64,000 nucleotides of DNA. Source: Eleftheria terrae. Lineage in GTDB: Bacteria > Pseudomonadota > Gammaproteobacteria > Burkholderiales > Burkholderiaceae_C. Made by a program: the position numbers and the translations under genes. Positions 6,258 through 27,791 of this stretch are shown in pieces. The notes beneath the pieces were generated by a model. It had not been told where the DNA came from, ran no database searches, and was given only the letters and a program-made list of their open reading frames with translations. Every line of letters begins with the position of its first letter. The stretch's first letter is position 1. The stretch lies in the NCBI RefSeq assembly GCF_030419005.1, contig NZ_CP106951.1, positions 4,774,001 through 4,838,000 on the forward strand. Direction: 5' to 3'.

Positions 6258-6258
6258 G

Positions 6259-6600: not shown

Positions 6601-6601
6601 C

Positions 6602-7556: not shown

Positions 7557-7703
7557 CGTTCCGCTCCCTATAGCCGGCCGCAGCATGTGCCGGCAGGTGT
7601 GAATGTAGTACGTCGCAAGCGGTGCGTCACCTCCGCCGGTTTGCCTCATGTCAGATCGGTGCACACCAAGCCGGGAGCCTCCTCTACCACCTCATTCATC
7701 CAT

Positions 7704-9287: not shown

Positions 9288-9300
9288 GCCGGATCGCATC

Positions 9301-9320
9301 GTGTCCAGACGTCTGGACAC
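9301..9320. promoter_or_regulatory. Perfect 20-bp palindrome before the lysis genes
   Basis: GTGTCCAGACGTCTGGACAC is a perfect inverted repeat with no loop, in the 61-base gap between the fibre-assembly gene and the lysis cassette. There is no T-run, so it is not a standard terminator. A dimeric repressor or activator site controlling late lysis expression is the simplest reading. The cognate protein is not identifiable here. Confidence 0.45.
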
Positions 9321-9348
9321 CTCACACCAACGACAGAAGGAGGGGCCC

Positions 9349-9630
9349 ATGGCCCAAACGAACAAGGAGGGCAGCGGCTTCGATCCGGCCGACCTGGTGG
9401 CCCGGGTCGAGCGGCTGGAAGCCGGCATGCAGGAGAACACGGAGGCGACCCGCCGGGTGGAAGCGAACACCGGCGAGCTGGTCGAGTTTTTCAGCAGCGT
9501 GAAGGGGGCCTTCAGGGTCTTCAACTGGATCGGCACAGTCGCCCGACCGATTGGCTACATCGCGGCCGCAATCGCCGCGCTGGCCGGCGCCTGGTCGGCA
9601 TTCAAGGGGGGAGGGTTCGGTCCGCGATGA
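9349..9630 (+). CDS. Putative holin/small lysis membrane protein
   Basis: A 93-residue protein. The ATG at 9349 is preceded by a very strong AAGGAGGGG site, which decides the start over upstream codons. It has a charged heptad-like N-terminal half (ARVERLEAGMQENTEATRRVEANTGELVEFF) and one C-terminal hydrophobic segment (IGYIAAAIAALAGAWSAF). It overlaps the endolysin by ATGA. Its position suggests a holin or a holin-accessory protein of the pinholin/SAR type. No holin family is named with certainty. Confidence 0.6.
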   Translation: MAQTNKEGSGFDPADLVARVERLEAGMQENTEATRRVEANTGELVEFFSSVKGAFRVFNWIGTVARPIGYIAAAIAALAGAWSAFKGGGFGPR

Positions 9631-10097
9631 CGCCAAAACAGAAGTTCTTGATGAGAGCAGGGGCCGCAGTTGCGGCCCTTGCCGTTTCTAGCGTGGTGAC
9701 GTTCGAGGGGACGGTGCCGCGCACCTACCGTGACCCGGTGGGCATCCTCACGGCTTGCCGGGGCCACACCGGCCCGGAGCTGCGAATGGGCCAGCAGTTC
9801 ACGCCGGATCAGTGCGACGAGCTGATGTACATCGACCTGCTGGAGGCCGAGGCGGACATTGCCTGCATCAAGCAGCCGCTGCGGCCGCATGAGAAGGCGG
9901 CGTTTATCAGCTTCGCCTTCAACGTGGGCCGAGAGAAGTTCTGTGCCTCGACCCTGGCCAGGAAAGCGAACGCGGGGGACCTGGCCGGAGCCTGCGCTGA
10001 GCTGTCGCGCTGGGTGTGGGCCGGTGGTCAGCAGCTGCCCGGCCTGGTGCGGCGGCGCGCGCATGAGCGGGCCATGTGCGAGGGGCGGGTGTCATGA
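9627..10097 (+). CDS. Endolysin, GH24 lysozyme with SAR-type N-terminus
   Basis: A 156-residue phage lysozyme that cuts the MurNAc-GlcNAc bond of peptidoglycan. The catalytic triad of the P21/T4 family is visible: Glu in TFEGTV, Asp in YRDPVG and Thr in LTACRGH. A weakly hydrophobic Ala/Val-rich segment (residues ~9-25) directly before the catalytic Glu is the hallmark of a signal-arrest-release endolysin, secreted by Sec and activated on membrane release. The conserved AFISFAFNVG and CAELSRWVWAGG motifs follow. Linked by ATGA overlaps to the holin-like gene and Rz. Confidence 0.92.
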   Translation: MTPKQKFLMRAGAAVAALAVSSVVTFEGTVPRTYRDPVGILTACRGHTGPELRMGQQFTPDQCDELMYIDLLEAEADIACIKQPLRPHEKAAFISFAFNVGREKFCASTLARKANAGDLAGACAELSRWVWAGGQQLPGLVRRRAHERAMCEGRVS

Positions 10098-11761: not shown

Positions 11762-13084
11762 ATGATGATTAAATATTTTGCTGCACTTCTTTTGTGCATC
11801 GTTTCTCAGGTGGCAATGGCACAGGCCAAAAGTTTGTTTCTGCCCGTGGATACCGCCCGTAAGGCGCTATCCACGGAGGTGAACGACAAACTGAAGGCCT
11901 TGAAAGCAAAGCGTACTACTGTCGATGTTCGAGTTCTTAACATTGACGTGAGCGCTTTACAGGCTGACGAAGTGCGGGTTGAGCTTGCTCCAGGGCGGGT
12001 AATCGTCTTCAAGGGAGGGAAACGCGAACCGCTTGAGGACGGCGGCTTCTCTTGGTCGGCCCGCACACAGGACGGCGACGACGCTCTCTTTCTAGTTAAA
12101 GGAGACCGGATTTGGGGCGGGCGGGTGCGCTCGCATGACGTCTACATCGTGACGGCGCTTGACGACGGGTCATATGCGCTTACCCGCATGGACCCCCGCA
12201 GACTTCCACAAGAGTCGGACAATCCAAAGCCGCTGCCTACGCCTTCGGCACCGCCCGCTTCTGCTGCCGCAAAAGCCTCCTCCGTCAGCAGCGCTGCAAA
12301 ACCCGTGCAGCTGGATCTGCTATTTGCTTTTACTCCCCGCGCAAGGGCTAGTACGGACGATATGAAACGCGACGTGGCGATCGCAGTTAATGAGCTTAAC
12401 AAAGCTTATGCCGCAAGTCGCGTGAATATCAAGGCTTCCGCCGTCGATATTTTCGAAATACCCTTGAGTGAGGCAGGCAAGAAGCCTACTGACGTTCTGC
12501 GGGAGTTCTCTCTGATGGAAGAGGTTCGGCGCCGTCGCGATGCATCGGGTGCAGACATCGGCGTGCTGGTGGCAACACCTCCGACATGCGGGGAGGCGAG
12601 AGGCCTCGCCGTGCCGGCGTCGGATGCATATGTGATCGTCGATATCAATTGCATGGTCGGCGATTTGACCTTAGGTCATGAAATCGGGCACCTGTTTGGC
12701 GCGATGCACGAGGATGATTACTCCCAGCCTCCGCTATATGCGCACGGTTTTCGGGACAGCACCTACAATGATGCACCATCCTGCGCGCCATGCTTCAGTA
12801 CGATTATGGCAACGCCACGAGTGCACAAGTGCACTTTTGGCAATAACGGGTCCACTTGTTGGAGTAAAAAGATATCTGTTTTCTCTAGCCCGAGACGCGA
12901 CTGTCAGGGTTTCGCCTGCGGTAACGACAGCAACGGCGACGTTGCGCGCTTTCTGAACGAGAAGGCCTCTTACGTGGCGGCATTTCGAACCAAGCCGAAC
13001 GGCGGCACGCCTCAGCAACCGAGGCCGAAGTCAAAGCGAGCGGCTGTCGCAGTAGCTGCGGTCGTGCCATTCATTGTTCAGTGA
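11762..13084 (+). CDS. Secreted metzincin-type zinc metalloprotease
   Basis: A 440-residue protease. Signal peptide 1-20 (ends VAMA), a propeptide-like beta domain (~25-145), a Pro/Ala/Ser linker (~150-180), then the catalytic domain. The extended zinc motif HEIGHLFGAMH gives His306, Glu307, His310 and His316 with Gly313 between, as in reprolysin/astacin-like metzincins, and TIMAT (Met349) is a good Met-turn. The C-terminal part is Cys-rich (CAPC, C-x8-C, CQGFAC), suggesting disulfides in the periplasm or medium. The basic tail ends with a hydrophobic AVAVAAVVPF. It lies between secreted small proteins and a toxin gene in prophage cargo, so it may be a toxin-like effector. Exact M-family not assigned. 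Confidence 0.88.
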   Translation: MMIKYFAALLLCIVSQVAMAQAKSLFLPVDTARKALSTEVNDKLKALKAKRTTVDVRVLNIDVSALQADEVRVELAPGRVIVFKGGKREPLEDGGFSWSARTQDGDDALFLVKGDRIWGGRVRSHDVYIVTALDDGSYALTRMDPRRLPQESDNPKPLPTPSAPPASAAAKASSVSSAAKPVQLDLLFAFTPRARASTDDMKRDVAIAVNELNKAYAASRVNIKASAVDIFEIPLSEAGKKPTDVLREFSLMEEVRRRRDASGADIGVLVATPPTCGEARGLAVPASDAYVIVDINCMVGDLTLGHEIGHLFGAMHEDDYSQPPLYAHGFRDSTYNDAPSCAPCFSTIMATPRVHKCTFGNNGSTCWSKKISVFSSPRRDCQGFACGNDSNGDVARFLNEKASYVAAFRTKPNGGTPQQPRPKSKRAAVAVAAVVPFIVQ

Positions 13085-13221
13085 ATCTGTGATTGCTGCC
13101 TGCATGCGGGCAGCGCGCGCTTAACAGTCGGTCACAGCGACTGCTGGACAGGTTGCCATACTCGCCGCCGCGCTGACACACCTTCCTGGGGCGGCGCTCA
13201 GCTGTGGGAGGCAGCGATGCG

Positions 13222-14649
13222 ATGGTAGGCAGGGGTTTCAACCGCTTCAGCTTATTGAGTGAGCTGCGGTACAAGGAAGAAGAGCTACGGCGAGGCCACA
13301 GCTCCACTGGAGGCTATGCCTTCGACCACTGGGGGCGTGCACTGCGTGACCAGGTGAACAGCGCGGCGCGGTTCATGGACCGGCAGATGAGCCGCGTGGA
13401 TCGCGTCACAGAAGCGCTGTACAGGTCGGGTGAAGAGACCCGCCGCATTGTGGTCAACCGCCTGGCCGGCCTGGAGGTGTCGATGATCCTCGACATCCTC
13501 ATTGAGGCCTGCAAGGACATTGCTTTGTACTACGGCGGTTCAGTCGTGGTCGGCGGCGTGGCGGGTGGCGTCGCGGGCTTCTTTGCTGGTGGCGTGGGCG
13601 CGGTACCGGGGGCCGGCATTGGCGCCGGCCTAGGCGCGAAGGCCGGTGTGTGGATTCTCGGCCTCCTGGGGCTCGCCTCATTGGTGGAGTACCTAGCCGA
13701 CTCGTTGCCCGATGCCTTCCGGTGCTATGAGGACGGCTTCCGCGCGTGCTGGGGGCCGCCACCGGGTACTGGCATGCGTTCGAGGGACTACGCCTTTGTG
13801 GGCGAGGACAACGCCGTAAGCTTCGCCGCCGGTCAGTTCGCGCAAGGCCACGTCATCCTTGTCATGGCGGTCCTGATGGCCCTCTCGGAGTACCTGACGC
13901 GCGGTAGAGGCGACAAGGCGCAGCTGCTGCGCGAGATCCGAGAGAGCCCCCGGCTCGGGCCGAGGGTCGCTGACTGGCTGGTAGCGAACGAGAAGCAGCT
14001 GGCGGGCCACCCAGGGTTGAACTATCGCAGCGCCAATGGCAGTGCCGCGGGCGGCGGGGGCAAGGGCGCCATACCGCCACCGCCTCCCCCGCCGCCCCGA
14101 GGCCCGAAGGAGCCCGATGGCACACCCAGCGGGCCGAGGCGCATGCCCGAGAAGAAGGTGCCGTGCTTCGAGTCGAACGACCTACCGGAGTCTATGATTC
14201 CCGAGTTCGACCGGCAGCTAGGCGGCCAAGAACGTGGCTTGAACGACATGACCGTTGCCGAATACCTTGAGGGCCGACGCGCATTTGAGGAGGGCGAGTC
14301 TGTTCGAGATCCGCAGATCGCGCGAAGCGCGCGCAACGCGTACCGTAGAGCCCTTCAGGACGACCTCACTGACAAGTTCAGGGCAGAGGGAATGAGCCCG
14401 AAAGCGGCAAAGGCAAAGGCGATTGAAGTGGCGAAAGAGCAAATGTCCACTTTGGCCGCTCTTCACAACCCCGACATGAAGGCGGGAGGCCGTGACTGGA
14501 TCACAGATATGGGCGACAGCGACGTCAATTCAAGGATCGGTGCCCAATGGGCATCACGAATTGAAGACTTAGACCGAGCGGCCGAGAATGTGCCGAAAGG
14601 CGACCGAGCAAAAACGCTCATGCATGCCAAGTTGCACCGTTGTAAATAG
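13222..14649 (+). CDS. Polymorphic toxin with Ntox15 (Tde1-like) DNase domain
   Basis: A 475-residue toxin. The ATG at 13222 follows GGGAGG; a GTG at 13204 is an alternative. Residues 1-180 form a helical domain with a Gly/Ala-rich hydrophobic segment (~101-158) resembling the DUF6861-type pre-toxin region. A second hydrophobic helix lies at ~208-224. A Pro stretch (285-292) separates the C-terminal toxin (~313-475), which carries the HNPD motif (His415, Asp418) plus GGRDWITDMGDSDVNSRIG, the HxxD signature of Ntox15 nucleases such as Agrobacterium Tde1. Those are type VI secretion DNases; no secretion genes are visible here. The next gene is the expected immunity protein. Confidence 0.82.
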   Translation: MVGRGFNRFSLLSELRYKEEELRRGHSSTGGYAFDHWGRALRDQVNSAARFMDRQMSRVDRVTEALYRSGEETRRIVVNRLAGLEVSMILDILIEACKDIALYYGGSVVVGGVAGGVAGFFAGGVGAVPGAGIGAGLGAKAGVWILGLLGLASLVEYLADSLPDAFRCYEDGFRACWGPPPGTGMRSRDYAFVGEDNAVSFAAGQFAQGHVILVMAVLMALSEYLTRGRGDKAQLLREIRESPRLGPRVADWLVANEKQLAGHPGLNYRSANGSAAGGGGKGAIPPPPPPPPRGPKEPDGTPSGPRRMPEKKVPCFESNDLPESMIPEFDRQLGGQERGLNDMTVAEYLEGRRAFEEGESVRDPQIARSARNAYRRALQDDLTDKFRAEGMSPKAAKAKAIEVAKEQMSTLAALHNPDMKAGGRDWITDMGDSDVNSRIGAQWASRIEDLDRAAENVPKGDRAKTLMHAKLHRCK

Positions 14650-14657
14650 GGCATCAG

Positions 14658-15296
14658 ATGGATGAAGATTTCGAGTTCTTCCTGGAAAACATCGGACCGC
14701 CGGTAAGCGCACGTCTTGTTCCGAAGCAAGTTATTGAGAAGTACACAGGAGTGCTACCGTCTCAGCTGCTGACGTACTGGAAGGAATATGGATGGGCCGG
14801 ATACGGAAGCGGAGTGTTCTGGGTCGTCGATCCGGAGGAGTATCAGCCGGTAGTGAAAGCGTGGATCGATCGCACTCCTCTTGCGCAGGAGGATAGCTTC
14901 TATGTGATTGGACGCGGCGCGTTCGGGAGGTTGCATTTCTGGGGCCGCGAGACAGGGGTGGCTTTGAGCATTGACGCGGTGCATGCAACAGCGTATCTCG
15001 GTAGCGCCCGGCTGACTGGTGAAAAGGAGGATCTTGGCATCCGTGCCTTTTTCTCCCGGCAGGATCAAGACAGAAATGACTGCGACGACGACTCCGGTGA
15101 GCCGCTCTTCGAGCGGGCGCTGGAACGACTAGGGAGGCTCAGCAGCGACGAAATGTATGGATTTGTCCCGGCGCGTGCTATGGGCGGAAATGGTTCTCTG
15201 ACAACACTCAAGCGCGTTAAGGCGATCGAACATCTCGTGTTTCTCGCGCAGCTAGTGCCTCTGCGGATTCATCGCCTGCCCGGGATACAGTCCTAG
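14658..15296 (+). CDS. Immunity protein, GAD-like/DUF1851 (Tdi1-like)
   Basis: A 212-residue cytoplasmic protein starting 8 bases after the toxin stop. The N-terminus (FLENIGPP, then IEKYTGVLPSQLLTYWKEYGWAGY) is the GAD-like domain. Residues ~60-200 (FWVVDPEEYQPVV, FYVIGRGAFGRLHFWG, MYGFVPARAMGG) match the DUF1851 pattern found in Tdi1-type immunity proteins. It should bind and block the HxxD nuclease, so lysogens resist self-intoxication. Pairing and spacing strongly support the call. Confidence 0.82.
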   Translation: MDEDFEFFLENIGPPVSARLVPKQVIEKYTGVLPSQLLTYWKEYGWAGYGSGVFWVVDPEEYQPVVKAWIDRTPLAQEDSFYVIGRGAFGRLHFWGRETGVALSIDAVHATAYLGSARLTGEKEDLGIRAFFSRQDQDRNDCDDDSGEPLFERALERLGRLSSDEMYGFVPARAMGGNGSLTTLKRVKAIEHLVFLAQLVPLRIHRLPGIQS

Positions 15297-15598: not shown

Positions 15599-16097
15599 AA
15601 TTCGCTGTTGGAGCCTGCTCAGCAAGGGCTCTGTTCACCGCTGCGAGGTTGCGTCCACGGTCGGCTTTAGGAATGACGCCTGCATAGTCGCGCATCATCA
15701 CCTGGATGCTGCGTCCGTGCTGACGAGCGACCCACACAGGATCGGCGCCGGCCTGTAGGGCCAAGGTGACGCTGGTGTCGCGGCACTCCTTTGGGGCTCG
15801 ATACCGGACGCCGCACCGGCGCAGGAAAGCATTTCAGGCCCTCCACTGCAGCGGTTCGTCGTGCCACGGCTTCTCGGGCTGCCCTGGCGTCGCAAAGACC
15901 CGTCCGTGCTTCTGCAGCTGCGTTCGCGTGTGCTGCCGTTCAAGGACCTGAGCGGCCCTCGCGTTCAGCTCGACCAGCCGCTCTACTGCTGTCTTTGTTC
16001 GCGCCTTGTCTCGACCAAGGACCCTTGCTTCTCGGACCAGCACGGTGAGCTGTTGTAGATCAACGCTTTGCCAGCGCAGCGCTGGATTAGTCGCCAT
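15579..16097 (-). pseudogene. Tyrosine integrase remnant, truncated with in-frame stop
   Basis: Only the C-terminal half of a phage tyrosine recombinase remains. One frame reads ALRWQSVDL ... GRVFATPG ... EPLQWRA, then an in-frame TGA (15832-15834), then continues RYRAPKECRDTSVTLALQAGADPVWVARQHGRS ... MRDYAGVIP. The nucleophile Tyr region survives, but the usual RHT reads RDT, the GHS reads GRS, and the N-terminal domain and first catalytic Arg are missing. The neighbouring secreted-protein gene begins where the integrase should continue. It points at the tRNA fragment as an integrase of a right-hand element would. Confidence 0.82.
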
Positions 16098-16944
16098 TAA
16101 TCAGCCCGGTATCAAAAACTTTGAAAGATTTCTTCTTGCGGTTTTTGTTACCGCGAGGTGCTGCCCCGGTCTCAGGCGGCACGAGGTCCAGAGTTTCGAG
16201 TTTCGCTTGTCTATCTGCGGGTTGCGGCCGCTCGATTCTCGACATGGTGATGGTTGCCTCTTTCGAAAGCTTCACCTGAGGGAAGATGTCGATCATCGGG
16301 AAGGCGCCGCCTGCCTTGTGAACAGAAAGATGAAAAATATGTGGCGATTCAGTGGCCTTCTCAGGAATGTGCAGCGTCACTCCTAGGGGGAGATTGGCGG
16401 TCGTCGCGAACTTCGGGTTGTAGTAAACGCGAGTGCCTTCCGGGTGCCAGAGGTTCGTGGCGGCGGATATTGGTGCGTATAATTGGCGGCCAGGTTGGTC
16501 AGTTTTCTCGAGCACTACTGCAATCTCTGCGCCTCTGTAATCCGCTTCCAGTTTCAACGAAGTCTGTAGTTTTAAGTCGCCCAGCACTGATTTCTGACCT
16601 GTCGTCGATCCAAAATGGACCGATCGAATTTCTATAAGCGGCACAACTATGTCGGCAACGAGGGTGCCGAGCCCCTGGGTAGAGTTTTTTAGGCTGACTG
16701 TTTGCGGCGTGTTTGCTTGATAACAAGCCGATTCCGAGCAGACTGCAACCTGGCCGAGCCGTATTCCGCTTTGACTATTTGCATCGTTGCTAGACAGGCT
16801 GAGTCTCAGGCGCGTAAAGCCATCCTTCGGAAGGTCCTCGCCACTTACAGACGACGTCGGCTGAGGATGGAATGGCAGACCCGCAAGACTTTCCTGCGCG
16901 AGTAGACATAAAGTCACAACTGCGGCTGCGGAGAATGATCTCAT
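16087..16944 (-). CDS. Secreted protein of unknown function
   Basis: A 285-residue protein with a Sec signal peptide (MRSFSAAAVVTLCLLAQESLAG) and a good AGGAG site 7 bases before the ATG. The mature chain is beta-rich (FTRLRLSLSSND, LVADIVVPLIEIRSVHFG, LKLEADYRGAEIAVVLEK) with two early Cys (VCSESACYQ), suggesting a periplasmic or exported beta-sandwich. The C-terminus is basic (RGNKNRKKKSFKVF) and overlaps the integrase remnant by 11 bases. No family recognised. AT-richer than the chromosome, so likely mobile-element cargo. Confidence 0.6.
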   Translation of the reverse strand: MRSFSAAAVVTLCLLAQESLAGLPFHPQPTSSVSGEDLPKDGFTRLRLSLSSNDANSQSGIRLGQVAVCSESACYQANTPQTVSLKNSTQGLGTLVADIVVPLIEIRSVHFGSTTGQKSVLGDLKLQTSLKLEADYRGAEIAVVLEKTDQPGRQLYAPISAATNLWHPEGTRVYYNPKFATTANLPLGVTLHIPEKATESPHIFHLSVHKAGGAFPMIDIFPQVKLSKEATITMSRIERPQPADRQAKLETLDLVPPETGAAPRGNKNRKKKSFKVFDTGLINGD

Positions 16945-17378: not shown

Positions 17379-17885
17379 ATGATGTGTATTTGTGGGAATC
17401 GAATCAATGCGGCGTTGCTGATCGTCAGCTCGCTGATTGCTGCGAACGCTTTTGCAGTTCAGCCTCAGTGTGGAAAAATCTTTGCCATCAGGCACGGAAG
17501 TATCCATGCCGATGGCGGGTCTGTGGAGTTGGAAGTCAGCTGCGCCGGCGCCATCAGGAAAATTAGATCTCACCTTTCCGTTGACGGTTACTTGAAGGGA
17601 ATCTCGATCGATGGCAGTCGGGCCCGCCCTTCATCTCGCCAGGCCATTCTCCTGATCAAAGGGTTGGACGGTCTCCTGAAGACCAGTTTCCCTGGGCGGT
17701 CGATCAGCGACATCAGGGAGGCGCAGTTCAGAACACCACGCGTCGCAGAAGCAAACGTCCCGATCCTGGCAGCAATTTCTCTGGTCGAGCAGGTGTGCCT
17801 TCAGTCGGGAGCGCCTGCCACCATCACGGAGATGTGCAGTGGGTATGTGACGCCGCCGTCACCGGCTTTGGATTCACAGTTCTGA
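17379..17885 (+). CDS. Secreted protein of unknown function
   Basis: A 168-residue protein. ATG at 17379 or 17382 follows GAGGGG. Signal peptide MMCICGNRINAALLIVSSLIAANAFA. The mature part has four Cys (QPQCGK, VSCAGA, EQVCLQ, TEMCSG), giving two likely disulfides, and a beta-rich middle (IRSHLSVDGYLKGISIDG). No family recognised. It stands alone between the decayed integrase region and the AAA+ operon; composition suggests acquired DNA. Confidence 0.55.
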   Translation: MMCICGNRINAALLIVSSLIAANAFAVQPQCGKIFAIRHGSIHADGGSVELEVSCAGAIRKIRSHLSVDGYLKGISIDGSRARPSSRQAILLIKGLDGLLKTSFPGRSISDIREAQFRTPRVAEANVPILAAISLVEQVCLQSGAPATITEMCSGYVTPPSPALDSQF

Positions 17886-18394: not shown

Positions 18395-20671
18395 TCACTC
18401 GCCGCGACGCACCGTCACCACCACCTCATCCGCCACCACGCCCACTTCCAGCACAGCCCGGTCCTCCACGCCCCCAAACAACGCTCGCGCCACCGCCGCC
18501 ACCACCCGCTGCTCCACCACCCGTTGCAGCGGCCGTGCGCCATACCGAGGGCTGAAGCCCACCGCGGCGACGAATGCCACCAGCTCCGGCGAGAACCTCA
18601 ACCGGATGCCGCGCCGCCGCAGCCCCTCCCGGTCGCCCACCGCCTCCAGCTCCTGCTGCGCAATCGCCTCGATCGCCGCCCGGGACAGGGGCGCAAAGGG
18701 CACCACCCGGTCGATGCGATTGAAGAACTCCGGCCGGAAGAACTGCCGGATGCCCTGCAGCGTGCCCGCCGCGCCGTCGTCGTCCATGAAGCCCAGCGAC
18801 GCGCCCTGCCGCACGCCCAGGTTGGTGGTCATCACGATCAGGCTGGAGCGGAAGTCGGTGACCCGGCCGCGGCTGTCCCTCAGCCGGCCTTCGTCCAGGA
18901 CCCCCAGCAACAGGTCGAACACCGATGGGTCGGCCTTCTCGATCTCGTCGAGCAGCACCACCGAGAACGGCCGCTGGCGCACATGCTCCACCAGCTTGCC
19001 GGGCCGGTCGCCACTGCCCACCAGGCGCGCCACCTGGAAGCTGTGCTGGAACTCGCTCATGTCGATGCGAAACAGCGGGTCACTGCCCCCGCCCGCGCCA
19101 AAGAAGTAGGCCGCCAGCGCCTTGGCGGCGGCCGTCTTGCCCACGCCGGTGGGGCCGGCGAACAGCAGGGTGGCCATGGGCTTGGCCGGGTCGTTCAGGC
19201 CGGCCTTGAAGAGGTACACCACCTCCTTCAGCTGCTCGATGGCGGCGTCCTGCCCGAACAGCCGCCGGGCGAAGAAGCCGTGCACCGCGGCCTCGTCCAG
19301 CGGTTGGTCGTCACGCAGGAAGGTCTCCGGCAGGCCGGTGGTGCGGGCGAACTGCGCGATGGCGGCCGCCTCGGTCACCACCGGCATGCCGTCGGCCAGC
19401 GCGCCGCGCACGCATTCGCCGAAGAATTTCACCGCCTTGCCCGGGAAGCGCTCATAGCGCACATACCGGTTCAACAGCCGATAGCCGGTGTCGAGGGCCG
19501 CGGCGTCCATCTCCACCGACAACGCAGCCTTGGCATGGCCGGCAAACAGCTCCAGCACCCGGCGCGCGCGGCTGCCGTCCATCTCGGGCAGCGACAGCGG
19601 CTCGAAGCAGTCGATGAAGCTGGGCAGCCGGCGCCGCGCGGTCTCCAGCTCACCCGGGGTGGCCTCGCCCACCAGCCGCAGCGTGCCCCGCCGCAGCGCC
19701 GGCAGCAGGTAGGCGGCCATCGAATCCTCGGCATTCTCGCCGCCGGTCTGCAGCAGGTTCACGAAATCCGTGAGCCACAGCACGCCTTGCGACAGCTCCA
19801 GCCACTGCACCAGCTGGTCGCACAGCGCCTGCCACTCGCCCAGGTACTTGGCGCGGCCGATCAGGCGCTCGGCATGGCTGCGCCAGAAGGTGGGCTGCTG
19901 CGCCTCGCGTCCGGCAGCCAGGCGGTGGGCCTTGCGGATCGCCTCCATGATGGCCACGCTCTTGCCCACCCCCGGCTCGCCCACCAGCAGCAGGTTGCCG
20001 CCGCGCAGCAAGCGCGCCACCAGCTCATCCAGCAGTGCGCCCTGCTCCCATGCGGTCTCGGGGAACACATGCTGGCCGCGTCGCCCGCCCGGCTCGGGCA
20101 GGCGGTCGGCCACCAGCTCGAGCTGGCTGTGCGCGTCGCGCAGGTGGCGGGGCAGGCCGCGGCTGTCCGCGCCGCGATCATCGTGGCGCCACTCCAGCTG
20201 CTCCAGCCAGGGACGCGTCGGCATCAGGTAGCGCTGCGCGGCTTCGGGTGGGAGTCCGTCCAGGCGGTCGCGCGTGTAGTGCTCGATCAGCACCGGCAGC
20301 TGCGCGTCGTCGTAGTAGTAGAAGCTCTCGTCGAGGTAGGGCAGATAGCACTTCGAATAGCCCTCCGCGGCATTGGCGCCGTACACCGCCGCCACCGTGA
20401 AGTCGCTCGCGCCGGGCACCGGGAAGCTGCCCTTTGGCGTGCGGTGGGCAAGGCTGACCTTCACGTTCAGCAGCTTCAGCCGCGCCTCGTCGATGTCCGG
20501 CGCCGGCACCCAGCGGCCGCGTTCGCGCTCGCGCTGCAGGGTCTCCGCCAGGGCGGTCTTGAGCCGGCGCGGGTTGCGCTCGACGGCCTGCAGGCCGGTG
20601 CCGAGCAGCAGCCCGAAGACCGACTCCTCGCCGGTCTGCCAGCACAGCAGGGGGTAGGACGATGTGGCCAT
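18395..20671 (-). CDS. ClpA/ClpB-like double AAA+ ATPase (third of three)
   Basis: A 758-residue ATPase. Start MATSSYPLL at 20671 after GAGGAGG, 14 bases from the previous stop. An unfamiliar N-terminal domain (1-200) replaces the Clp repeat domain. NBD1: Walker A GEPGVGKS (231-238), a ClpB-like pore loop AKYLGEW (~274-280), but Walker B reads GVLWLTDF, so the Asp-Glu pair is lost. NBD2: GPTGVGKT (506-513), VVLLDEIEKA (571-580), sensor TTNLG, arginine finger in FRPEFFNRID, all intact. The aromatic GYVG pore loop expected after RLVG is absent. No middle domain: spacing between the NBDs is as in ClpA. An unfoldase or remodelling role is likely; no ClpP partner nearby. Confidence 0.85.
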   Translation of the reverse strand: MATSSYPLLCWQTGEESVFGLLLGTGLQAVERNPRRLKTALAETLQRERERGRWVPAPDIDEARLKLLNVKVSLAHRTPKGSFPVPGASDFTVAAVYGANAAEGYSKCYLPYLDESFYYYDDAQLPVLIEHYTRDRLDGLPPEAAQRYLMPTRPWLEQLEWRHDDRGADSRGLPRHLRDAHSQLELVADRLPEPGGRRGQHVFPETAWEQGALLDELVARLLRGGNLLLVGEPGVGKSVAIMEAIRKAHRLAAGREAQQPTFWRSHAERLIGRAKYLGEWQALCDQLVQWLELSQGVLWLTDFVNLLQTGGENAEDSMAAYLLPALRRGTLRLVGEATPGELETARRRLPSFIDCFEPLSLPEMDGSRARRVLELFAGHAKAALSVEMDAAALDTGYRLLNRYVRYERFPGKAVKFFGECVRGALADGMPVVTEAAAIAQFARTTGLPETFLRDDQPLDEAAVHGFFARRLFGQDAAIEQLKEVVYLFKAGLNDPAKPMATLLFAGPTGVGKTAAAKALAAYFFGAGGGSDPLFRIDMSEFQHSFQVARLVGSGDRPGKLVEHVRQRPFSVVLLDEIEKADPSVFDLLLGVLDEGRLRDSRGRVTDFRSSLIVMTTNLGVRQGASLGFMDDDGAAGTLQGIRQFFRPEFFNRIDRVVPFAPLSRAAIEAIAQQELEAVGDREGLRRRGIRLRFSPELVAFVAAVGFSPRYGARPLQRVVEQRVVAAVARALFGGVEDRAVLEVGVVADEVVVTVRRGE

Positions 20672-20685
20672 GCAGTGGCTCCTCC

Positions 20686-23600
20686 TCAGGCCGCCAGGTC
20701 GGCCTGGTGGCCGTCCCACAGCAACAGTCGCCAGTCGTCTTCGCTCAGCGGGCCCGAGAACTTGCGCACCCAGCCGGAGCGCAGGTCGGTCAGGCGCCTG
20801 AGCTCGGCCGGGCGGGTCGGTTCAAGGCGGATGCGGATGATCTCGGTGGGCATCGGCGGCGCCGCCCCGGCCTCCAGCGGCCGCAGGCGAACGGCCACCG
20901 GCACCGGTCGGTCGCTGCCCAGGTACCAGAGATGAACGCCGCACTCCCGGTCGAAGGCCTTGCGCAGGCCGGTGCCCTCGAAGCAGCGCGTGCCGGGGCT
21001 CGACGACGGCAACTCGTGCGCGTCCAGCTGCAAGAGCAGGGCGGCATAGTCGCCCCAGGCCGCCTCCAGCACCGAGGGCGGCGCGCTGCTCTGCAACGGC
21101 ACCACTTCGATGCCGACGCGCTCGACGCCATGGCGCCGCAGGCTGGCCGCGCGGCGGGCCAGCCCCTCCAGCTCCAGCTGCCAGCGCACCACTTCCGCCT
21201 CTGCTTTGCGCAGCGGCCGGGCGCTGCTGTGTGCCTGCTCGAAGAAGTCGCGGATGTCGTGCTGCGCAAACAGCATGTCGGCCAGCGGCCGGCCTTGCTC
21301 GCGCCAGTCGCGCGGCCGCAGCTGGGGGGCGGCCACCGGGCGGGCGGTCGCTATGCGCTGCTCGGCCAGTTCCCAGCAGCGCTGCGCCAGCCTGTCGCGC
21401 AGCGGGTCGAGCCGCACCTGCAGCGCCCGCAGTGCGAGCGACACGGCCGCGTCGGTCGCGCGGTCCAGCTCGACACGCAGGTGCTCGTGCAGCGCCTGCG
21501 CGCGGTCGGACAAGGCCTGGTAGGCCGCCGGGGACGCGCTGTCCTGCGGCAAGGCCACCGGCTGTAGCGCGGCATAGTCGAGCAGCGTGGCGCGGGTGGC
21601 CAGCCGGCCGCCCTGCAAGTCGACGTCCAGCAGCATCGGCTGGCCCACCGGGGAGGCGGCCAGGCGCTGCGCAATGGGCCCGGTGAGGGCCCGCTCCATG
21701 GCACGCTTGAGCGCACGGGCCCCCAAGGCTTCGTCATGGCCCAGGCGGGCCAGCTGCTCCAAGCCTTGCGGCGACACGTTCAGGAAGCTCAGCCGGCGCA
21801 GGAAGCCGTCACGCGACAGGATCCGCTCCAGCTGCAGTCGCGCAATCGCCGCCATGTCCGCGGCTGCCAGGGGCTTGAAGCCCACCACCTGGTCGATGCG
21901 GTTGAGGAACTCGGGCCGGAAGAAGCGTTCCACCGCCTCCCGGTAGCTGTGGGCCGCGTCGGCGGCCTGGCGCATGAAGCCGGTATGGCGCTGGGCTGCG
22001 GCGGCCCCCAGGTTGGACGTCAGCACCACCACGCAGTGCGAGAAGTCGGTGGTGCGGCCCAGCGCGTCGGTCAGCCGGCCTTCGCCGAGCAGCTGCAGCA
22101 GCAGGTCGTGCACCGCGGGGTGCGCTTTCTCGATCTCGTCGAGCAGCAGCACGCAGGCACGCCGCTGCCGCACGGCCGCCGTGAGCTGGCCATCGGGCCG
22201 TGCGGCATCGCCCACCAGGCGCTCCAGGGCGCTGGCATCGACGTATTCGTTCATGTCGAAGCGAACCAGGCCGCCTTCGTCCTCGAACAGGTAGTCGGCC
22301 AGCAGCTTGGCCGCCTCGCTCTTGCCCACGCCGGTGGGGCCGATGAACAGCAGCGACGACAGCGGCCGGCCGGGCGCGGCCAGGCCCGACTTCACCAGGG
22401 CCACCACATCGACCAGTTGCGCGCAGGCCTCCGGCTGGCCGATCAGGCGCTGCTCGAAATGGGCCTGCGCCTCCACCGGGGCCAGGCCCACATGGCGCGA
22501 GAACAGCCGCTCGCGGAAGTGGTAGGCGGCGGTGTAGGCCGCCAGCACCTCGGCACGGCCCACCGACTGCCGTGCATGCCGCACCGCGAGGCGGTCGAGC
22601 ACCCGCAGCGCCGAGCCGGGCAGCACCTCGTCGCCAGCAAAGCGGCGCTCCATCTTCAGCAGCTCGGCCACCGCCGCCGAGTCGATGCGGCAGCCGTGCT
22701 GCGCTTCGAGCTCGGCCCGGCGCCGGCCGACGATGCGGATGGCCACCTGCCGGGGCGGCGGCTCGACCCGGATCACGCGGAACAGGTCGGCGAAGCGGCG
22801 GTCGCCCTGCTGCACCTTCTGCCACGCCTCGGGCGTCGCCTCGCCGATCATCGTGAAGGCGCGCCGCTCCAGGGGCGGGCGCAGCACGTCGGCCAGCGTC
22901 AGCCGGTTCTGCGAACTGCGGCCGATGGACAGCAGCGGCACCAGGTTGTCGCAGTAGAGATGGTCGGGTTGGTCAATGCGGAACGGCTCCTGCCGGCGCG
23001 ACTGCACATGCTGCAGCACCACCGCCATGCGGCGCTGCCACTGGCCGACCACGCTCATGCCCGAGATCACCCGCATCGGATCGAGCTGCCAGATCTTCTG
23101 CAGCCGGGCTCGGTCCTGCCCGGCGTGCGCGGCCATGTAGCGGCGCAGCGCACCGTGCACCAAGGTGGTCTTGCCGGCGCCGCGCGGGCCCACCAGCACC
23201 AGCGCACCGCCGTCGGGCCGGTAGATGGCCTGCTCCAGCGCCTGCACCGCGTCGTCGCGCAGGAAGGCGCTGGACAGCCCGTCGGGGTACAGCTCGTTGA
23301 GGTCGCTCGCCACCCGCACGATCTCGCTCGCACCGTCGCCCATCGGGTCGCCGTGCAGCGCGGCCATCAGCTCGTTGCCGCCTTCGAAGGGAAAGCGGCC
23401 ATGCCCGAGGTGCAGCGACAGCTCCAGCTCCGCCAGCTCGTCGTTGGGTGCCGCCAGGTAGCGTTGCGGGTCGAAGCGCTCGCCCAGCTCCTTGCGCTGC
23501 TCGCGGAAGTAGGCCTGGATGCGCGCCACCAGCCGTTCGGTGCGCTGGGCCTTGTCCAGGTGCAGCTCGCCCAGGTCGGCCACCGTGCCGTCCAACTGCG

Positions 23601-23928
23601 GCAGGCAGGCATAGCGGCGCTCGCCCACGCTGAAGTGGGCCGCCGCGAAGACGCCCTCGACCCAGCGTCGCCCGGTGTCGAAACCCAGCGGCACCAGCTC
23701 GAAGCGCAGCTCCGGCGCAAAGGTGAGCCACAGCCGCTCGTCCAGCGTGGAGCGCTCGCTCTTCACGCCACGGAAGTGCTGCACCACCACCTGGCGCAGC
23801 TTGTTCAGCGCCGTCTCGTAGCGCTGCGCGACCGCGTCCAGCTGCGGCAGGAACAGGCAGCGCAGGCGGTAGCCGGCGTCCTTGCGGTGGGTCACGAAGA
23901 CGGGAATCTTCAGCATGCCGGTACTCAT
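20686..23928 (-). CDS. ClpA/ClpB-like double AAA+ ATPase (second of three)
   Basis: A 1080-residue ATPase coupled to the previous gene by a TGATG junction, with GGAGGACG as ribosome site. N-terminal domain 1-200 (IPVFVTHRKDAG, LFLPQLDAV) of the same type as its neighbours. NBD1: Walker A GPRGAGKT (247-254); Walker B degenerate (LYCDNLVPLL, no catalytic Glu) and no Tyr in the first pore loop. NBD2: GPTGVGKS (530-537), VLLLDEIEKA (593-602), TSNLGA, FRPEFLNRID. The GYVG loop is missing. A C-terminal ~330 residues beyond the AAA+ core are Leu/Arg-rich helices then beta strands (DRPVPVAVRLRPLEAG), not seen in ClpA/ClpB. Probably assembles with its paralogues. Confidence 0.85.
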   Translation of the reverse strand: MSTGMLKIPVFVTHRKDAGYRLRCLFLPQLDAVAQRYETALNKLRQVVVQHFRGVKSERSTLDERLWLTFAPELRFELVPLGFDTGRRWVEGVFAAAHFSVGERRYACLPQLDGTVADLGELHLDKAQRTERLVARIQAYFREQRKELGERFDPQRYLAAPNDELAELELSLHLGHGRFPFEGGNELMAALHGDPMGDGASEIVRVASDLNELYPDGLSSAFLRDDAVQALEQAIYRPDGGALVLVGPRGAGKTTLVHGALRRYMAAHAGQDRARLQKIWQLDPMRVISGMSVVGQWQRRMAVVLQHVQSRRQEPFRIDQPDHLYCDNLVPLLSIGRSSQNRLTLADVLRPPLERRAFTMIGEATPEAWQKVQQGDRRFADLFRVIRVEPPPRQVAIRIVGRRRAELEAQHGCRIDSAAVAELLKMERRFAGDEVLPGSALRVLDRLAVRHARQSVGRAEVLAAYTAAYHFRERLFSRHVGLAPVEAQAHFEQRLIGQPEACAQLVDVVALVKSGLAAPGRPLSSLLFIGPTGVGKSEAAKLLADYLFEDEGGLVRFDMNEYVDASALERLVGDAARPDGQLTAAVRQRRACVLLLDEIEKAHPAVHDLLLQLLGEGRLTDALGRTTDFSHCVVVLTSNLGAAAAQRHTGFMRQAADAAHSYREAVERFFRPEFLNRIDQVVGFKPLAAADMAAIARLQLERILSRDGFLRRLSFLNVSPQGLEQLARLGHDEALGARALKRAMERALTGPIAQRLAASPVGQPMLLDVDLQGGRLATRATLLDYAALQPVALPQDSASPAAYQALSDRAQALHEHLRVELDRATDAAVSLALRALQVRLDPLRDRLAQRCWELAEQRIATARPVAAPQLRPRDWREQGRPLADMLFAQHDIRDFFEQAHSSARPLRKAEAEVVRWQLELEGLARRAASLRRHGVERVGIEVVPLQSSAPPSVLEAAWGDYAALLLQLDAHELPSSSPGTRCFEGTGLRKAFDRECGVHLWYLGSDRPVPVAVRLRPLEAGAAPPMPTEIIRIRLEPTRPAELRRLTDLRSGWVRKFSGPLSEDDWRLLLWDGHQADLAA

Positions 23929-26900
23929 CACACGTCCTCCCCGAGCAGCATGCGGTCGATCAAGGCCTCGAAGTGCCGGTCGAGCACCCGCTTCCAGGCA
24001 AACTCGTCCGGGAACTCGCAGCGCCAGTCTGCGCCTGGGTCGCTGAGCAGGCCCTGCTTGAGCTGCCGGTGCACGGGCAGGCCGTCGAAGAAGTGCTGCC
24101 GGTGCACCTGGTGGGGCGTCTCGAACTCCGCCAGCGGCTGGTTGCGCACCGACACCCAGGCGTCGGTCTTGCGGTCGTCCTCCCAGAGGCGCCAGACGCC
24201 GCCTTCCTGGCGGAAGTAGTCGAAGGCGGCCGGTCCGCTGAATTCGATCTCGAAGCCCACCATCAAGGCATGCCGGCCCTCCTTCTGCGGCCAGGGGAAC
24301 TTGCGGTAGGCACTGGCCCGGGCGGCGGCTGCTTCCTCGTTGCGGGCTGGCCCGTCGCTGGCCGCATCAGGCTCGCGCGGCGGGGCCGGCCGGTGCGTCT
24401 CGTCCGCCAGGCGCACCACCTGGCTGCGCGCCTCGAACCCGGCGCGCGCGGCCACCTCGCACCAGGCCTGGTGCAGCACCGGCAGCAGGCGCGGCGAGGC
24501 GTACAGCCCCACCGTGCAGCGGGCGCTGGCCGGGCGGGCCGCATGGAAGGCCTGCTGCTTGAAGGCCAGGAAGCGGCCGCGCCAGGCCGCCACGTCGGGC
24601 GGCGCTGCGTGCTCGCCGGCCAGCGCGAGCAAGGCCTGGCCCTCGAGGTCGGCGATCTCGGCGAACAGCGCCTCGGCATCCTGCTGCACGGCGGCCAGGC
24701 TGCGGGCGCGCGCCGCATCCTCGGTGCCGTCCCAGTGCGGCAGCTGCGGCGCACGGCGGCGCTTGTGCTCGTAGCGCTGCCGCTGCTTCTCCAGCCGGAA
24801 CACCTGATTCACGAGGTTCACGAACAGCGGCCCCTCGGTCACGCGCTGCCAGTGGCGCCGCGCCTCGGCCAGCGCGTCGGCGGCCTGCAGCGGTGTGGGG
24901 TCCACCGGTCGCTGCAGCGGCTCGGCCTGCAGCGCCAGCGCGCCTGGCGCACCGGGGCGCAGCTGCACCGCCAGTGGCGCCACGTAGGCATGCGGGGCCA
25001 GCGCATGCGCCAGCGGCAGCAAGAGGTGGCGGCGCAGCACGCGCTGCACGTCGCGGGCGCCGTAGCGCGGGTCGCCGGGCAGGGCGGCCAGTGCGTCCGC
25101 CACATCGTTGGCCAGTGCGAGCTCGACGTTGCGCTCCAGCAGCCCCTCGCGCTGGCGCATCAAGGCCATCTCGCGCGCGAAGATCGGTGCCCGTTGCGCG
25201 GACGATAGCGCCGCGTAGGGCACGATGTGGTCGATGCGGTTGAACAACTCGGGCCGGAAGGCGTCCTGCACCGCCTGCTCGAAATGCCGCCGGGGATCGT
25301 CCCGGCGCTCGGTCATCGCGATGGGCGCGCGCTGCATCACCTCGGCGCCCAGGTTGGAGGTCATCACCACGAAGCAGCCGCAGAAGTTGGCGGTCAGGCC
25401 ATTGCCACCGGTCAGCCGGCCTTCACCCAGCACCTGCAGCAGCAGGTCGAAGAAGCTCGGGTCGGCCTTCTCGAGTTCGTCGAACAGCACCACCGAGAAG
25501 GGCTGCCGGCGCACCGCGCCGATCAGCACGCCCTCGTCGCCGCCCAGGTCACCCAGCAGGCGCAGCACGGCGTGCGGGTCGGCGTACTCGCTCATGTCGA
25601 TGCGGATCATGCGGCGCGGGTCGCCGAACATGAATTCGGCCAGCGCCTTGGCCGTCTCCGTCTTGCCAACGCCGGTGGGCCCGATCAGCAGCAGCGAGGC
25701 GATCGGCTTGCCGGTGCGCGCCAGCCCCGTCTTGGTGGTGGCCAGCAGGCCGGTGACCACGTCCAGTGCCTCGTCCTGCCCGAAGAGGCGGCGGCGGAAG
25801 AAGGCATCCACCTCGGCCAGGTCCAGCGGCAGCCGGGCGTCCAGCATGCGTCGCGGCATGCCGGTCTCGGCGCAGAAGGCGTCCAGCGCTTCGTCACGGC
25901 CCAGCCGGGGCGATTGCCCGCGGGCGTGCAGGATCAATTCCTCGAAGAACCGGATGCCCTTGCCCGGAAAGCCCGAGTAGGGCGAGAACCGCCGCTGCAG
26001 CGCCAGCACTTCCGCCACCGCCTCCTGCGACAGGGCCACCCGGTGTTCCTGCGCCAGTGCGCCGACCGCCTCGACGATCACCTGCTCCTGCGCCGCCTCG
26101 GTCAGCTCGGGCAGGGTCACCGCCTGGAACAGCGCCGAAAACCCGGGGCTGCGCAGCTCGATGCGCGCCAGCTCCGCCGGGGTGGCTTCCGCCAGGAGCA
26201 TCAGGCGGCCGCGGGCCAGTGGCTCGCGCAGCGCGTCGCCGAGGCTGACCGCATTGCCTTGGTACTGGCCCACCTCGAACAGCTCCGCCAGGTGGCCGAC
26301 GTAGAGCATCAGGTCGCGCTGAGCCAGCTCGTGGCACAGCACCGCCAGCGCGTGCTGCCAGCCGCCGTCGCGGGTGAGCCCCTGGATCAGCCGCGCCGCA
26401 CTGGTCTCCCAGGGGGCGGCCAGCCCGCGCCGGCGGCGCTCGCGCACATACTGCTGGAGCAGGGCGGTCTTGCCGCTGCCCTCGGCGCCGACCACCAGCA
26501 CGCTGCGCGCGAACGGCCCCTCGGCCGCGCGCAGCAGCGCCGCCAGCGGGTCGGCCAGCCCGGCGGCAGGGCGGGTCGCCACATGCATCTCGTCGGCCAC
26601 CGCCTCCAGCAGCGGCTCGCTGCGCTGCTCCTGCAGGCGGCGCAGCGCCTCGGCGCTGTGGAAGACCAGCTCCAGCGGCAGCTGCTTCAGCTCCACCTGC
26701 TCGAACCAGGCGGCGGCGACCTGGCGGCGCACGTCGGCTTGCCGGCCCTCGCGCCGGTGTTCCAGCCGGATCGCCTCGACCACCGCTTCGCGCAGCAGCC
26801 CGGTCTCGGCCAGCGCCACGATGCCGAGGGCCGGCACACAGGCGAGGCTGCGCGCGCCGGCGCGCCCGCTGGCCAGGAAGGCCACATGCCGGACGCGCCG

Positions 26901-27173
26901 GGCGGGCTGCAGCAGTGCGTCCGGGCCGCCCGGCAGGTCCACCTCGATCTCGTGGCGCTCGAACTCCGGCGGGTCGGCCAGCTGTATCGCATCCAGGTAG
27001 CGTCCCTGGTCCAGCCACTCGGCCTGCACCGCGCGCGCCAGCTTGCGTGCCATGGCCGGCGCGCTGCTGCCGAGCCAGGCCACCTCGGGAAAGGCCAGCG
27101 GCGTGACGACGGTCTCGCCGGAAACGGTGGTGAGCTCGAAGAAGGCGAGCGGGGGCAGGCTCGTAGGTCGCAT
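23928..27173 (-). CDS. ClpA/ClpB-like double AAA+ ATPase (first of three)
   Basis: A 1081-residue ATPase, first large gene of the operon. N-terminal domain ~1-200 (FFELTTVSGETVVTPLAFPEV) has no Clp repeats. NBD1: Walker A GAEGSGKT (229-236); Walker B replaced (LMLYVGHLAEL), so hydrolysis there is unlikely. NBD2 is intact: GPTGVGKT (498-505), VVLFDELEKA (561-570), TSNLGA (605-610), FRPELFNRID. The GYVG pore loop after RLLG is absent. A ~350-residue C-terminal extension (from ~735) has coiled-coil-like and Trp-rich segments (FPWPQKEG, WRLWEDDRKTD). No strong ribosome site at 27173, so the start is less certain; it lies 90 bases after the small leading gene. Confidence 0.83.
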   Translation of the reverse strand: MRPTSLPPLAFFELTTVSGETVVTPLAFPEVAWLGSSAPAMARKLARAVQAEWLDQGRYLDAIQLADPPEFERHEIEVDLPGGPDALLQPARRVRHVAFLASGRAGARSLACVPALGIVALAETGLLREAVVEAIRLEHRREGRQADVRRQVAAAWFEQVELKQLPLELVFHSAEALRRLQEQRSEPLLEAVADEMHVATRPAAGLADPLAALLRAAEGPFARSVLVVGAEGSGKTALLQQYVRERRRRGLAAPWETSAARLIQGLTRDGGWQHALAVLCHELAQRDLMLYVGHLAELFEVGQYQGNAVSLGDALREPLARGRLMLLAEATPAELARIELRSPGFSALFQAVTLPELTEAAQEQVIVEAVGALAQEHRVALSQEAVAEVLALQRRFSPYSGFPGKGIRFFEELILHARGQSPRLGRDEALDAFCAETGMPRRMLDARLPLDLAEVDAFFRRRLFGQDEALDVVTGLLATTKTGLARTGKPIASLLLIGPTGVGKTETAKALAEFMFGDPRRMIRIDMSEYADPHAVLRLLGDLGGDEGVLIGAVRRQPFSVVLFDELEKADPSFFDLLLQVLGEGRLTGGNGLTANFCGCFVVMTSNLGAEVMQRAPIAMTERRDDPRRHFEQAVQDAFRPELFNRIDHIVPYAALSSAQRAPIFAREMALMRQREGLLERNVELALANDVADALAALPGDPRYGARDVQRVLRRHLLLPLAHALAPHAYVAPLAVQLRPGAPGALALQAEPLQRPVDPTPLQAADALAEARRHWQRVTEGPLFVNLVNQVFRLEKQRQRYEHKRRRAPQLPHWDGTEDAARARSLAAVQQDAEALFAEIADLEGQALLALAGEHAAPPDVAAWRGRFLAFKQQAFHAARPASARCTVGLYASPRLLPVLHQAWCEVAARAGFEARSQVVRLADETHRPAPPREPDAASDGPARNEEAAAARASAYRKFPWPQKEGRHALMVGFEIEFSGPAAFDYFRQEGGVWRLWEDDRKTDAWVSVRNQPLAEFETPHQVHRQHFFDGLPVHRQLKQGLLSDPGADWRCEFPDEFAWKRVLDRHFEALIDRMLLGEDV

Positions 27174-27263
27174 CGGACGCGCAGCAGCAGGGCAAACGGC
27201 GGATTCTGCCGCAGCAGCGCGCCGGCCCGCATGCCGCCCGGGGCCCCCAGGCGGGGGTGTCGC

Positions 27264-27791
27264 TCAGGCGCCGGCGGCCAGGGCACCCAATGGTGCCCCA
27301 CCGGTGGCCCGCGCCACTGCGGCCGTCTCGCCCGCGCGCTCGGCCGCGTAGCGCTCGCTGCAGAGCCGCTGCACCGTCTCCCACAACGGCGCGCGTTCCG
27401 CGTGCACGCAGTAGATGGAGCGGTTCGGTGCGGCCGAAGCGGGCAGCAGGATCGCCGCCGCGCGGGCGCGGGCCATCGAGCGCTGCCACCAGGCGATCGG
27501 CCGGCCCCGCGCATCCAGCAGGGTGCGGATCATGGTCAGCGACACCGGCCGGCCGGCTGCGCCGGCATCGGCCGCTTCCGCCAGGCAGTAGCGCAGCTCC
27601 AGCACCCGGGCCCGCGGCGCCTCCCACAGCACCGTTTCGGCGTCTCCGCAGCAGCTCAGCAGGCGGTCGACGCCGTACTCCCAGTCCGCCTGCAGCGGCT
27701 CGGGAACCGGCTCGGCCGGCGACAGGCGGTACAGTCGCAGGGCCGGCACGCGGGCCGGACGCAGGGGCAGCAGGCGGGGCAGGGCGGGCAT
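27264..27791 (-). CDS. Small protein leading the AAA+ operon, unknown function
   Basis: A 175-residue protein. Start MPALPRLLPLRP at 27791 is set by AAGGAG 9 bases upstream. An N-terminal Pro/Leu/Arg-rich stretch is followed by a mixed alpha/beta body (DWEYGVDRLLSCCGDAETVLWEA, RVLELRYCLAEA, IAWWQRSMARARAAAILLP, SIYCVHAERAPLWETVQRLC) and an Ala/Gly-rich tail. No family recognised and no membrane segment. As the first gene of a four-gene unit it may be an adaptor, target or regulator of the three ATPases. Confidence 0.6.
   Translation of the reverse strand: MPALPRLLPLRPARVPALRLYRLSPAEPVPEPLQADWEYGVDRLLSCCGDAETVLWEAPRARVLELRYCLAEAADAGAAGRPVSLTMIRTLLDARGRPIAWWQRSMARARAAAILLPASAAPNRSIYCVHAERAPLWETVQRLCSERYAAERAGETAAVARATGGAPLGALAAGA

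Follow-up and report, generated by a model that had tools for sequence, protein, structure and literature searches.

The Hsp100 class I proteins ClpA, ClpC and ClpB are the closest described relatives of three ATPases encoded by an operon of Eleftheria terrae. The operon lies in a 64,000-nucleotide stretch of DNA (G000:C2:4774001-4838000, in a genome of 7.03 Mb), which is referred to here as the window. It runs on the minus strand from 27791 to 18395 and encodes a protein of 175 amino acids followed by three Clp-like double AAA+ ATPases, named here ATPase-1, ATPase-2 and ATPase-3. The ATPases and their relatives share with ClpA, ClpC and ClpB the two AAA+ domains (D1 and D2), the ClpB_D2-small domain, the Walker A and B motifs, sensors and arginine finger of D2, and a GF-containing loop where ClpA has IGF. 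They differ in that no Clp N-domain was seen and no ClpB middle domain is present, while the Walker B motif of D1 is broken and the GYVG of D2 is missing. A further difference is an extra C-terminal domain, and the trio in the window also differs in being three paralogues in one operon.

Other described systems resemble this family in part. Torsins are Clp-like AAA+ proteins without the usual pore-loop aromatic residue and are membrane-associated, which is a likeness to the family of the window. They differ in having a single AAA+ domain, in being eukaryotic and lumenal, and in having no release-factor domain. Sections of a release-factor survey (PMC6514570) describe Vms1 as a release-factor-family protein that interacts with the AAA+ ATPase Cdc48 in eukaryotic ribosome quality control, and Dom34/Pelota as related to release factors but lacking the catalytic glutamine, with a role in ribosome rescue. 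Vms1 and Cdc48 are separate proteins, from an unrelated release-factor superfamily and another AAA+ clade, and are an analogy only. Dom34/Pelota belongs to the archaeo-eukaryotic release-factor superfamily and has no ATPase fusion. A fusion of a Clp motor with a release factor is not described in these sections of the survey.

In the bacterial family reported here, a single-gene form related to the trio has a C-terminal tail that very probably originates from release factors 1 and 2 (RF1/RF2), with the GGQ catalytic domain excised. The tail of ATPase-2 probably has the same origin, and for ATPase-1 this origin is somewhat favored. Tentatively, the operon may encode a non-canonical Clp/Hsp100 machine of three specialized subunits, docked by release-factor-derived arms, perhaps on ribosomes. 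A Clp and release-factor fusion was not found in the open-licence full-text literature, a scope that excludes preprints. This suggests that a Clp machine with a release-factor-derived tail is an undescribed architecture.

Release-factor likeness of the C-terminal tails

The related single-gene family consists of proteins of about 1100 amino acids and was found in 12 genomes. Eleven proteins were used; a 276-residue fragment (G927) was left out of the alignments, and in G126 and L082 a contig end cuts off the final part of the tail. An N-terminal hydrophobic helix is present in seven of nine of these proteins as called and in the other two with an upstream start; in G1365 and G1495 it was seen by eye. 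The tail follows D2, in the same position as the extensions of ATPases 1 and 2.

The Pfam family PCRF was over its cut-off in three single-gene proteins, G126 (29.5 bits), L060 of G642 (25.3 bits) and G039 (20.4 bits, or 24.5 with neighboring stretches). A profile search of PDB with nine tails gave 33 matches at E<=0.1, and all 33 are release factors. The best was RF2 (2.8e-9). In the one alignment printed, RF2 residues 31-216 are matched, with 322-354 as a weak second stretch (2.1 bits alone), and the segment between them is skipped. This segment holds the GGQ domain. When the tails were aligned by hhalign with six RF1/RF2 sequences the E-value was 1.4e-8, and it improved to 5.9e-10 over 196 columns once the GGQ domain was cut from the release factors. 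With uncut release factors, the best of 100 column shuffles scored 21.9 and the real alignment 65.2; the short C-terminal helix by itself reached 20.2, and the highest of its 100 shuffles 15.5. The addition of two more divergent tails weakened the hhalign value to 2.6e-8. In G1365 and G642, the next genome-wide match of the tail profile is a reading frame about as long as a release factor (361 and 373 amino acids).

Domain 1, the codon-recognition core and the C-terminal helix of RF1/RF2 are thus recognizable in the single-gene tail, and the domain-1 helices, core and C-terminal helix all appear to be kept. The tail differs from RF1/RF2 in that the GGQ domain is excised, the stop-codon tripeptide is lost and the whole follows a Clp motor in one chain. 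The tails contain no GGQ; the GGQ strings that occur in six single-gene proteins sit in D2 or just after D2-small (for example, SGGQFLFV). No SPF or PAT was found in the last 120 residues of the 11 single-gene proteins, two of which are truncated. Three P-x-T strings are present behind the core. The single-gene homologue at L090 5873-9301 (G1365) has an insertion in the domain-1 part of its tail, seen by eye, and the profile matches it in two pieces.

Between the tail of ATPase-2 and those of the single-gene proteins, hhalign gives an alignment of 176 columns at E 5e-4, which 0 of 60 shuffles equaled; with different cuts the value is E 0.002. The tail of ATPase-1 matches a pooled profile that includes release factors at E 0.0066, with 0 of 80 shuffles as high and with the core and C-terminal helix aligned in order. 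The likeness to release factors appears moderately supported in ATPase-2 and weakly in ATPase-1.

The trio among Clp proteins and its distribution

The D2 motor appears to be complete throughout the family. Walker A, Walker B (DE), the sensor-1 asparagine, the arginine-finger motif and GAR are kept in 20 of 20 members. An intact Walker B DE in D1 was found in none of the 20; ATPase-2 keeps the D, and the P-loop of D1 is kept in all three ATPases of the trio. The GYVG pore loop of D2 is present in none of the 20 members, but in 9 of 9 ordinary Clps for which the frame was picked independently of GYVG. Two further ordinary Clp references have GYVG, for which it was part of the frame-picking rule. 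The aromatic residue of the D1 pore is present in all 11 single-gene proteins and in ATPase-3 (3/3), and it is absent from ATPases 1 and 2 (0/6).

In the tree, 18 family members lie on one side of a branch with 100/100 support and 11 ordinary Clps on the other. The tree was rooted at the midpoint, and two single-gene members found later are outside it. ATPases 1 and 2 group together (94/89), and the trio as a whole groups at 92/93, which bears out the paralogy claimed in a first-pass annotation of this DNA. AAA_2 and ClpB_D2-small were found in all 13 family members scanned. Against the NCBIfam models for ClpA, ClpB, ClpK, ClpG and ClpV, which have cut-offs of 885-1900 bits, the trio scored at best 310.5 bits and three single-gene proteins at best 341.3. 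Ordinary ClpB, ClpA or ClpV was ruled out by these scores and the tree. Type VI secretion was also ruled out, as a secretion gene is absent from the operon. The genome of the window has ordinary Clp genes elsewhere (G000, L001-L004). One groups with ClpB-like references, one is ClpA-like with IGF, and two are mutually related; the last two look like the ClpV of a type VI secretion system (T6SS).

The first-pass annotation had proposed the recurrence of the four-gene order as a check, and this order does recur. In Aquabacterium sp. A7-Y the order of all four genes is preserved, as are the neighboring regulator, kinase and xdhC genes, and Albitalea terrae S-16 (G294) has the three ATPases in order without the small gene in front. 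These two relatives came from a pattern scan of genome_contigs (one genome per species, 42 pattern matches) with the N-domain and D1 of ATPase-3 as the query. Because the order is the same in both, it is not due to chance. The three orthologues are adjacent in all three genomes that have them, which were sought through ATPase-1 and ATPase-3, so that a lone ATPase-2 orthologue would be missed. The possibility that the genes occur separately in relatives, also raised in the first-pass annotation, holds in half: single-gene homologues exist, but as a separate clade, and the trio orthologues stay together in the three known genomes.

The small protein is less constant. Its Aquabacterium orthologue matches at E 8e-60, and it is present in two of the six genomes searched, those of the window and Aquabacterium; the other four, Albitalea included, gave nothing better than E 0.02. 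It was not found in Albitalea and therefore does not belong to the core of the machine. Its ratio of nonsynonymous to synonymous substitution (dN/dS, calculated with our own script) relative to Aquabacterium is 0.50 over 172 codons. The values for ATPase-1, ATPase-2 and ATPase-3 are 0.23, 0.25 and 0.19.

The family has a rare and patchy distribution across the genome samples. Whole-genome searches covered Pseudomonadota, in addition to the pattern scan for ATPase-3. Among 299 genomes of the window's family, its own included, ATPase-1 is carried by the window genome and G294; a third match, G419, is an ordinary Clp by the tree. ATPase-1 is absent from the three same-genus genomes among those listed (3/3). 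In an order sample, 4 of 200 genomes matched (its own, G039, G126 and G044), and G044 proved to be an ordinary Clp. In a further order sample, 5 of 399 matched (its own, G039, G126, G1365 and G1495). In a phylum sample of 398 genomes, G642 and G863 alone besides its own stand clear of ordinary Clps. The threshold there was lax, with 391 of 398 matched and nearly all of these ordinary Clps, and the two were set apart by a score gap (720 and 677 versus 444 bits). Within the family f66, 8 of 147 genomes carry the single-gene form, G642 and G863 included. A class sample gave none in 321 genomes with a profile that is blind to the trio, in a sample that holds no positive control. In the samples of 200, 299, 398 and 399 genomes, which overlap, the best two or three candidates per genome were scored, and members may be missed.

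The single-gene form was not found in any of the three trio genomes. Its gene neighbors vary among genomes, and M12-like large proteases were seen by eye near the single-gene homologues in several f66 genomes (L060, L079-L082). Among plasmids, neither ATPase-3 nor a single-gene protein had a match that spanned 80% of the query. Among phages, ATPase-1 had none, and no family member was found in viral contigs. Phage or plasmid cargo was ruled out on these searches.

Possible action of the trio and rival explanations

The ancestor of the family would have been one membrane-anchored chain with a transmembrane helix, a D1 pore aromatic, a D2 motor and a release-factor-like tail. In the lineage of the trio, the gene may have lost its anchor, triplicated and divided its labor, so that none of the products would be complete alone. 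The pore tyrosine would have stayed with ATPase-3, the tails with ATPases 1 and 2. The three ATPases most likely assemble as one hetero-oligomer. A hetero-oligomeric machine had been suggested in the first-pass annotation, and it becomes more likely because the losses are complementary: of the three, ATPase-3 alone has the pore tyrosine, and it alone has no tail. The ring would hydrolyze ATP in D2 and would remodel its client rather than thread it processively; the missing D2 loop speaks against ordinary threading. The tails, which follow D2 at the site of ClpP docking in other Clps, would be a client-docking module. With neither peptide-release chemistry nor a stop-codon tripeptide, they would most plausibly engage ribosomes or ribosome-bound complexes without ending translation. 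The ribosome is the obvious candidate for a docking partner, because RF1/RF2 act there, and the tails may bind it. It is doubtful, but conceivable, that this is an undescribed bacterial Clp class with a built-in GGQ-less release factor, which would allow a ring ATPase to dock at the A site of the ribosome, or to enter it, and to remodel stalled or modified ribosomes by mechanical force. The single-gene form would then be anchored in the inner membrane, and the trio would be a soluble hetero-oligomer with divided labor.

Several observations weigh against a ribosome-docked machine with release-factor-derived arms. PCRF was found at E<=0.01 in at most 5 of the 13 family members scanned, a bound taken from its being outside the 25 families listed, the last of which has five members. 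Even at E<=1, the ATPase genes of the window genome and of Albitalea gave no PCRF match. In the three trio genomes, a search with the single-gene tail profile brought up no release factor at E<=0.01, and none of the trio tails either. Compared directly with release factors, the ATPase-2 tail gives E 0.21, with 9 of 60 shuffles as good. For the ATPase-1 tail the likeness is marginal. Shuffles as good as the real alignment numbered 20 of 60 with the single-gene tails, 7 of 80 with these tails plus ATPase-2 and 1 of 60 with release factors, and other comparisons gave E 0.27 and 0.23. PDB searches with the trio tails gave only a dioxygenase for ATPase-1 (E 0.2) and mitoribosomal mS37 for ATPase-2 (E 0.035), and no release factor. 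The tree program warns of long branches that meet at the join of single-gene proteins with ordinary Clps and at that of ATPase-1 with ATPase-2. The codon-reading residues are not conserved, so the fold may be reused for a protein ligand. A translation-related gene is not a constant neighbor, as judged by eye. Assembly and ribosome binding are both inferences from sequence.

The last points lead to the rival that survives best, that the release-factor-derived tail is a fold reused as a protein-binding or ring-stabilizing adaptor in a specialized disaggregase or remodeler with no tie to translation. The missing SPF or PAT and the lack of translation genes nearby are consistent with it, and relative to Aquabacterium the trio has changed more quickly in its tails than in the D2 motor. 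The single-gene family appears to keep the domain-1 helices, core and C-terminal helix, however, which is more than a minimal adaptor needs, and fold reuse of this kind is considered somewhat unlikely.

The three ATPases could instead form separate homo-oligomers with different clients and merely share an operon, and each does have the complete D2 motifs to act by itself. The complementary loss of pore tyrosine and tail, kept in three of three orthologues of each, and the overlapping or closely spaced genes make this unlikely. It is less likely still that the window tails resemble release factors by chance, with only the single-gene family being release-factor-like and ATPases 1 and 2 having gained unrelated extensions. 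The weak single comparisons of the ATPase-1 tail and the failure of PCRF and PDB to link either tail to release factors would fit with chance. The shuffle controls of the ATPase-2 alignment and of the pooled ATPase-1 alignment do not, nor does the shared position of the tail behind D2 in the related clade.

Partnership with ClpP is another explanation. ATPase-3 would dock ClpP through its LGF loop, and the release-factor-like tails would recruit substrates for degradation. The core of the proteins is ClpA-like in length and too short to hold the middle domain of ClpB. Where the docking loop for ClpP would lie, ATPase-3 has LGF (3/3), five of the 11 single-gene proteins have LGF or MGF, and six of 11 references, the ClpA-like ones, have IGF. 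The first-pass annotation noted the absence of ClpP. This is true at the locus, but the genome of the window has two ClpP-family matches elsewhere. Against ClpP partnership, the loop reads TGF in ATPase-2 (3/3) and PGF or PAF in the other six of the 11 single-gene proteins; in ATPase-1 the motif is LGL in one of three and absent in two of three. In addition, ClpP is missing from the operon, and the pore loop that serves threading in D2 was found in none of the 20 members. A ClpP-partnered unfoldase is thus improbable. A conflict or self-protection system, either for phage defense or for shielding ribosomes from the producer's own compounds, is very improbable: the rare, patchy distribution and a large gene downstream of the trio in Aquabacterium that by eye resembles a nonribosomal peptide synthetase would suit it, but PADLOC matches cover the AAA part only, no defense island was seen, and the plasmid, phage and viral-contig searches described above gave no family member.

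The operon, its surroundings and wider meaning

The features of the operon are given in Table 1. The four minus-strand open reading frames of the first-pass annotation were confirmed, and its claim that they are coupled was upheld: the frames of ATPase-1 and ATPase-2 overlap at TGATG, and a gap of 14 nucleotides separates ATPase-2 from ATPase-3. The C-terminal extensions that it described in two of the ATPases follow D2-small in ATPases 1 and 2 and are absent in ATPase-3. Its non-Clp N-terminal domains were likewise upheld: all three ATPases match AAA_2, ClpB_D2-small and generic AAA families, and the Clp N-domain is absent among the 25 best Pfam matches of each, so that any match is weaker than about E 0.02, 0.02 and 0.09 for ATPases 1 to 3. 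The N-domains of the ATPases showed no clear homology to one another or to that of the single-gene form (E 0.027 or worse). Its interpretation was therefore supported in paralogy, coupling and N-domains, and it missed the likeness of the extensions to a GGQ-less release factor and the single-gene, membrane-anchored relatives.

Table 1. Features of the ATPase operon in the window. Boundaries of the C-extensions, and hence their approximate lengths, were set by the authors.
Feature	Position	Strand	Description
Small leading protein	27264..27791	-	175 aa, open reading frame with ribosome-binding site, no known domain
ATPase-1	23928..27173	-	1081 aa: N-domain, D1, D2, C-extension
ATPase-1 D1, ~residues 206-440	25854..26558	-	Walker A kept, Walker B DE changed to GH, pore tyrosine lost
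ATPase-1 D2 and small domain, ~residues 441-735	24969..25853	-	Walker A/B, sensor 1, Arg finger and sensor 2 kept; GYVG loop absent
ATPase-1 C-extension, ~346 aa	23931..24968	-	Weak match to release-factor-like tail; core from ~residue 973
ATPase-2	20686..23928	-	1080 aa: N-domain, D1, D2, C-extension
ATPase-2 C-extension, ~315 aa	20689..21633	-	Matches release-factor-like tail of single-gene family
ATPase-3	18395..20671	-	758 aa: N-domain, D1 with pore tyrosine (RAKYLGEW), D2 with LGF at ClpP-docking loop position, no C-extension

The ribosome-binding site GAGAAGGAGAA is immediately 5' of the open reading frame for the small protein, and a promoter scan found none. The small protein has no Pfam, NCBIfam or PADLOC match, and its best PHROG match is at E 0.11. 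That it is an excised N-domain or a piece of release factor was ruled out (hhalign E 0.08 or worse). Its gene is divergent from a response regulator, a histidine kinase and xdhC.

Just downstream of the operon are two open reading frames, at 16087-16944 on the minus strand and 17379-17885 on the plus strand, with no Pfam match at E<=0.001. Beyond them is a Tde1-type pair on the plus strand, a DUF6861 and Ntox15 (toxin 15) protein at 13204-14649 followed by a GAD-like/Tdi1 T6SS immunity protein at 14658-15296. A reprolysin-like (M12) metalloprotease is encoded at 11762-13084 on the plus strand. The codon model calls no gene in the stretch from 10.1 to 18.4 kb. From 1 to 10097, the order and sequence of open reading frames resemble, by eye, a prophage tail and lysis module, the last gene of which is about 8 kb from the operon. 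The Tde1-type pair sits between this prophage-like tail module and the ATPase operon.

The family joins Clp unfoldases and bacterial release factors, two core families that were not found described together in the open-licence literature. If the tails bind ribosomes, bacteria would have a new kind of ribosome-associated machine driven by ATP, and a Clp class that docks at the A site would follow in bacteria the same logic as Cdc48 with Vms1. If the tails do not bind ribosomes, a translation fold would have been reused in a Clp ring that gave up its usual threading loop. In addition, the one-chain form and the three-chain form with divided functions can serve as a natural experiment on the role of each part.

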